A stretch of 39,089 bases of DNA from a virus, in IMG/VR virus record IMGVR_UViG_3300042934_000559, positions 1 to 39,089 of that record, one strand, 5' to 3'. This document shows, in pieces, positions 6,689 to 7,052 of the stretch. How positions within the stretch are numbered: position 1 is the first letter of the stretch; each line of letters starts with the position of its first letter. A program made the translations under genes and the position numbers. Below the pieces are notes generated by a model, which saw nothing but the letters and a program-made list of their open reading frames with translations, was not told the DNA's origin and searched no databases.

Positions 6689-6731
6689 ATCGGCATCACC
6701 TCCTCTCAGGCAGAGTGTGGGCATAACGTGG

Positions 6732-6781
6732 GCAAGCCCCCGGCAGGCCGCTCGTGAGAGCGATTCCTACCGGGGGCTTGC
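6732..6781. terminator. Long hairpin downstream of the nrdF fragment
   Basis: Inverted repeat GCAAGCCCCCGG (6732-6743) with CCGGGGGCTTGC (6770-6781). It is extended inward by AGG/CCT across a C/A mismatch and holds an inner CGCTC-GTGA-GAGCG hairpin. There is no T-tract on either side. It lies just 3' of the nrdF stop on the minus strand, so it could be a transcription terminator or part of the attP architecture. Confidence 0.55.
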
Positions 6782-6822
6782 GATCGCAGCCTAGCCCACG
6801 TTTACAGCTGCGATCAGGGACT

Positions 6823-6924
6823 TTAGAAGTCCCAGTCCTCGTCTTCGGTGGCCTCGGCCTTGCCGATGACGTACGACGAGCCCGACCCCGAGAAGAAGTC
6901 GTGGTTCTTCGCATGCCCGCCAGT
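6823..6924 (-). pseudogene. nrdF: 3'-terminal fragment of host class Ib nrdF
   Basis: The minus strand reads [19 protein letters not shown], then [11 protein letters not shown] and a TAA stop. The [13 protein letters not shown] segment and the terminal DWDF are the typical C-terminal tail of actinobacterial NrdF, the part that docks to the large subunit NrdE. Upstream of about 6924 the frame continues without resemblance to NrdF and there is no ferritin-like core, so this is only the last ~30 codons. It is best explained as the attP identity segment. Capture of a host fragment by recombination is the alternative. Confidence 0.8.
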
Positions 6925-7052
6925 GGATGCAGTTGACCGCGTGATCTTGCGGATTCGGCGGGTGCTGGCGGGTGCTGGGGGTCGCGGTTTGGCATCCAAG
7001 TGTGGGCAAAGTGTGGGCACGCACCCCCTAACTGTGACTCTGCCCAATGGAT

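Follow-up and report, generated by a model that had tools for sequence, protein, structure and literature searches.

Why would a phage genome carry the last 28 codons of nrdF, a host gene for a class Ib ribonucleotide reductase (RNR) small subunit, with nothing of the enzyme before them? The window analysed here (the whole stretch of 39,089 nucleotides, IMG/VR virus record IMGVR_UViG_3300042934_000559) has identical first and last 127 bases. It therefore corresponds to a complete circular genome of 38,962 bp (record length 39,089), which is that of a temperate phage. It encodes siphovirus head and tail proteins, a primase/polymerase and, besides an immunity region, the two tyrosine recombinases Int1 and Int2; a search of the window for tRNA genes found none. 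Clustered repeated and inverted GACCGTGCC/GGGGCACGGTC motifs at 32500–32690, upstream of the structural genes, are possibly a regulatory or replication region. The answer defended below, with high confidence, is that 6715–7019 serves as attP for a temperate, siphovirus-type Microbacteriaceae phage and that Int2 recombines in the nrdF block, rebuilding the gene. This fits the first-pass annotation, which placed an attP in the 3' end of a host nrdF, and the exchange is most likely located at the 5' end of an 84-bp block. The features concerned are as follows.

1–127, identical to 38963–39089: terminal repeat, exact over 127 bp
6715–6734, plus strand: arm-type sites of the flank that carries the integrase gene in relatives; GTGTGGGCA TAA CGTGGGCA, 11-bp register
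6732–6781, minus strand: hairpin 3' of the nrdF stop, probably a terminator that the phage supplies to the rebuilt gene (fold z = -5.9)
6817–6833: dyad across the stop codon, taken from the first-pass annotation; unconserved
6823–6906, minus strand: 84-bp core identical to host nrdF, last 28 codons (NHDFF...WDF and stop)
6892–6910: candidate core-type sites and strand-exchange overlap, GAAGAA-GTCGTGG-TTCTTC (6-bp inverted arms, 7-bp spacer)
6998–7019, plus strand: arm-type sites of the opposite side, tandem AAGTGTGGGCA
7962–8885, minus strand: Int1, second tyrosine recombinase
32940–34034, minus strand: Int2, tyrosine integrase with arm-binding (PF14657) and catalytic (PF00589) domains
34500–35287: immunity region, made of an HTH protein (34500–35015, minus strand) and a divergent repressor-like HTH gene (35045–35287, plus strand)
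35287–35526, plus strand: small HTH_17 protein, candidate excisionase or regulator, 45–75% conserved in the majority of the nrdF-type relatives compared

NCBIfam class Ib NrdF models cover residues 61–90 of the open reading frame and reach the very end of the profile (best E-value 1e-12). The match starts at residue 61 and the translation agrees, which bears out the earlier observation that no enzyme precedes the tail. The extent given at that time (6823–6924 on the minus strand) has to be shortened, nrdF being found in 6823–6906 while the TGGHAK stretch is phage sequence. The 84 bp of this block are 100% identical to the intact nrdF of two Microbacterium genomes (G186 and G096), well above the nucleotide match of at least 25 bp to a bacterial nrdF on which the first-pass annotation had made its proposal depend. 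The site is conserved in 191 of the 198 sampled Microbacterium genomes and a second copy of the tail is present in about 14 of them (part of which were inspected); in one, G069, both copies belong to ordinary nrdF genes. Among phage-borne tails, synonymous variation affects 15 of 22 codons and amino-acid variation only 3 of 22. In class I RNRs, this tail includes the tyrosine presumed to carry the radical, and its C-terminal residues presumably dock on NrdE. The hairpin at 6732–6781, overlooked at first, lies between the tail and an arm site, and similar hairpins are found in most related att sites. The dyad GGGACTT-TAG-AAGTCCC, previously noticed across the stop codon, is indeed present but is probably incidental, as it is not conserved among these sites.

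When Int2 was used as query against 84,980 species genomes, the seven top matches (61–73% identity) came from Microbacterium and Leucobacter luti. All seven have a full-length nrdF just past the integrase gene and oriented towards it. In the five genomes where both lie on one contig, a displaced second tail is located 41.8, 51.0, 45.9, 40.0 and 18.4 kb off; further displaced tails were found at 39.5 kb in G116 and 43.8 kb in G152. In the integrase-side copy the host frame runs on (...SPNADE|NHDFF...), and it is preserved across all such copies; the far copy is preceded by unrelated phage sequence. Regenerated and displaced copies are thus found in G038–G042, G044, G116 and G152, as well as in G045 and G046 of a second integrase lineage, and not for the window itself. 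Prophages bordered by a regenerated gene on one side and by a displaced tail on the other, which the first-pass annotation had proposed to look for, therefore exist in Microbacterium and Leucobacter isolates carrying Int2 relatives. One of them, in G040, encodes tail proteins 67–76% identical to those of the window. Conversely, the best-matching 27 loci that were checked (L233–L259) have an intact nrdF and lack the arm pairs, i.e., are empty sites. The phage thus appears to carry 28 nrdF codons because its relatives insert there in Microbacterium and its kin, rebuilding the end of the gene.

Rebuilding is probably indispensable. In nine lysogens, a single RNR large-subunit gene was detected, namely the nrdE beside nrdF, and a search for NrdJ (class II RNR) gave nothing above the cut-off; nrdF is therefore probably essential. 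The chimeric NrdF of G040 matches class Ib models over its whole length, and such chimeric proteins are presumably active. In a Microbacterium oxydans genome (G043, locus L116), the integrase frame is interrupted and a search for the displaced tail found none; this prophage is apparently decayed, so that a host may keep a phage-derived NrdF tail. A Microbacterium-type integrase locus (L126) occurs in a genome labelled Planococcus, likely through contamination or mislabelling. One locus considered as a prophage with attL and attR (L008 in G005) was rejected, as the same phage flank adjoins both tails, which indicates a circular genome cut at attP.

The short repeats flanking the tail had been likened to integrase arm sites, and their distribution supports this. 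GTGTGGGCA occurs on the plus strand at 6715, 7000 and 7011, with a single further copy at 27806 (minus strand), for 0.39 expected in the whole window; CGTGGGCA is located at 6727. The window contains exactly two TGGGCA-N5-TGGGCA tandem pairs (6718 and 7003), and the shuffle control none. Wherever arms can be recognised in a related att site (the artificial join L008c being left out), the distance is 95–97 bp from arm to core and 171–175 bp from core to arm, despite largely different sequences between arms and core. The integrase of G152, among the most divergent of its clade, has TGACTAC repeats at unchanged places; this replacement of TGCCCAC (loci L262 and L263) suggests that integrase and arm sites co-evolved. 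More broadly, a tandem arm pair lies at the 3' end of the integrase gene in 86 of 161 Int2-family loci (0.02 expected) and upstream of it in none. These loci include many at other attachment sites, and the arm sites are thus a trait of the Int2 family.

The position of the crossover can be approached in lysogens G039, G116 and G152, in which the two tail copies differ. The far copy is host-like from base 16 of the block, with host-type alleles (an AGY serine codon and, near base 62, a GAG glutamate codon) at which the integrase-side copy differs, and is then followed by host sequence. The crossover is thus likely to fall within the first 15 bp of the 84-bp block (AACCACGACTTCTTC, codons NHDFF). 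This position is likely rather than proven, as the nearest empty relatives that provide the host alleles are only 91–94% identical in nrdF. If so, the NrdF of the lysogen probably consists of a host body and a phage tail, and the remainder of the tail would be a replacement coding sequence. The 5' end of the block also carries the dyad at 6892–6910 (GAAGAA-CCACGAC-TTCTTC on the other strand), whose 7-bp spacer may be the overlap, as a tyrosine recombinase would have. This dyad is only suggestive, because the perfect palindrome is restricted to the phage of the window and its closest relative.

Which of the two recombinases acts on this attP? Most likely it is Int2, although Int1 is nearer. A single clade of 21 integrases (support 99) holds 20 of the nrdF type, including Int2 of the window; its exception, L012, whose contig spans 19 kb, groups there by its Int2 yet shows no nrdF tail. 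In every nrdF-type relative examined whose integrase gene is visible, the integrase at the site is an Int2 homologue. It could be argued instead that Int1, 1 kb from attP and with its 3' end facing it, uses the site and that Int2 serves another one, all the more so as the related phage L010 holds a remnant of Int1 at the same relative place. This is very unlikely. In L010, where attP adjoins Int2, the remnant lacks the stretch bearing the first catalytic arginine, and in G002 and the integrated prophages Int1 is undetected, save for weak matches overlapping Int2 itself. Furthermore, the arm repeats follow the Int2 family, Int1 has no arm-binding domain match and is related to integrases from phages of Arthrobacter and Gordonia. 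The Int1 copy of L010 lies at 8411–8752 and is devoid of its middle part.

The distance between Int2 and attP raises a further difficulty. In relatives, 113–1157 bp separate the integrase gene from the tail, against ~13 kb, measured along the circle, for the window and for its closest relative G002, whose Int2 is 98% identical. This separation results from the inversion, relative to attP and the late genes, of a ~13-kb early module (Int2, immunity and replication; 32700–39089 and 1–6600), as read against the related phages L010 and G040. A search for inverted repeats longer than 15 bp at both module ends gave none, and a search for further phages with a gene near attP in common found only G002. 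The inversion might be taken to have disabled a true attP, the phage then persisting unintegrated or relying on an inefficient Int2 in trans. This is quite unlikely: nothing is missing from the two arm pairs, the core or Int2, the arrangement is common to two ~90% identical phages, and one of these ends near the core boundary like an integrated copy. Integrases are able to act in trans, and Int2 would act on the attP of the window from 13 kb. That the early module flips as a switch coupling Int2 to attP, possibly through Int1, and that the phage NrdF tail influences the only RNR of the lysogen is a speculation of low probability. Even less credible is that the fragment is not an attachment site at all and is the remnant of a phage-borne nrdF gene. 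Whole nrdF genes are common in actinophages and the best phage DNA matches are complete RNR genes of lytic phages (74–90% identity), but the fragment begins at one and the same base in every phage and prophage compared and has arm sites on either side at unvarying distances. Moreover, prophages of the family are inserted exactly there, between a regenerated nrdF and the displaced tail.

Comparison among genomes shows the identity of the site, the regenerated and displaced copies in relatives, the arm sites, their spacing and the Int2 clade. The integration process can be proposed as follows. Int2 would bind the tandem TGGGCA arm sites flanking the core on both sides, and recombination would occur within the beginning (~15 bp) of the 84-bp block. 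The body of the host nrdF would then be joined in frame to the last codons, stop codon and hairpin terminator of the phage, and the original host tail would end up at the opposite border of the prophage. The tail past the crossover would be dispensable for recombination and retained to keep NrdF working.

A second Int2-family lineage is found at nrdF, in a Mycobacterium MAG (L170) and in a MAG labelled Acidobacteria (L139), with displaced tails elsewhere in the assembly (loci considered: L170; L139, L296 and L297, G046 and G045). The L139 MAG looks mis-binned; its nrdF looks actinobacterial. The integrase tree requires either a separate origin or repeated losses for this second lineage. At L139, the integrase gene is oriented opposite to its own att site.

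Insertion into the 3' end of a gene, with that end restored, is the usual arrangement at tRNA genes and has precedents at protein genes (PMC13313380). As in the integration of actinophages and islands in tRNA or tmRNA genes (PMC10654092, PMC4383910), the phage copy restores the 3' end and a displaced fragment marks the far end; at nrdF, however, the target is protein-coding and probably essential, and the restored coding tail is kept by its amino-acid sequence. The first-pass annotation considered nrdF an unusual attB; this is fair for nrdF itself, the rebuilding of a protein gene 3' end being already known from the Rhodococcus phage Sleepyhead, whose attP lies in the 3' end of an acyl-CoA dehydrogenase gene (PMC13313380). 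Sleepyhead is likewise a temperate actinophage with an integrase; ~90 bp of its genome match the extreme 3' end of a protein-coding gene, which it presumably rebuilds. Its attP adjoins the integrase gene, as in the nrdF-type relatives and unlike in the window. Its target is not an RNR gene and its site was inferred from one phage, whereas at nrdF many genomes show the two junctions, unoccupied sites and an arm geometry that is conserved. GInt islands also occupy the end of an RNR subunit gene, in their case a duplicated alpha gene (PMC5385486), but they differ by the subunit (alpha instead of beta), by being four-gene islands rather than a phage with Int2, and by their unrelated host (aeruginosa). 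This RNR-alpha case was the only one retrieved when nrdF or RNR was sought as attB in the open-access literature, supplementary tables aside, and nrdF is apparently unreported as a phage integration site. Among isolated phages, the closest integrases listed are those of the Gordonia phages Finkle, Schmidt and Gsput1 (45–46% identity over nearly the full length), which are not of the nrdF type as far as seen.

The phage of the window would therefore use an apparently new integration site, located in what is seemingly the only aerobic RNR small-subunit gene of its host. Being conserved in nearly all sampled Microbacterium and used in Mycobacterium too, this site could be exploited by integration vectors for genera in which tools are scarce, and the occurrence of two integrase lineages at the same nrdF site makes the rules of attB choice testable. 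It also illustrates how a phage can use an essential gene, by exchange in a barely variable run of codons combined with the carriage of a replacement coding tail and terminator.
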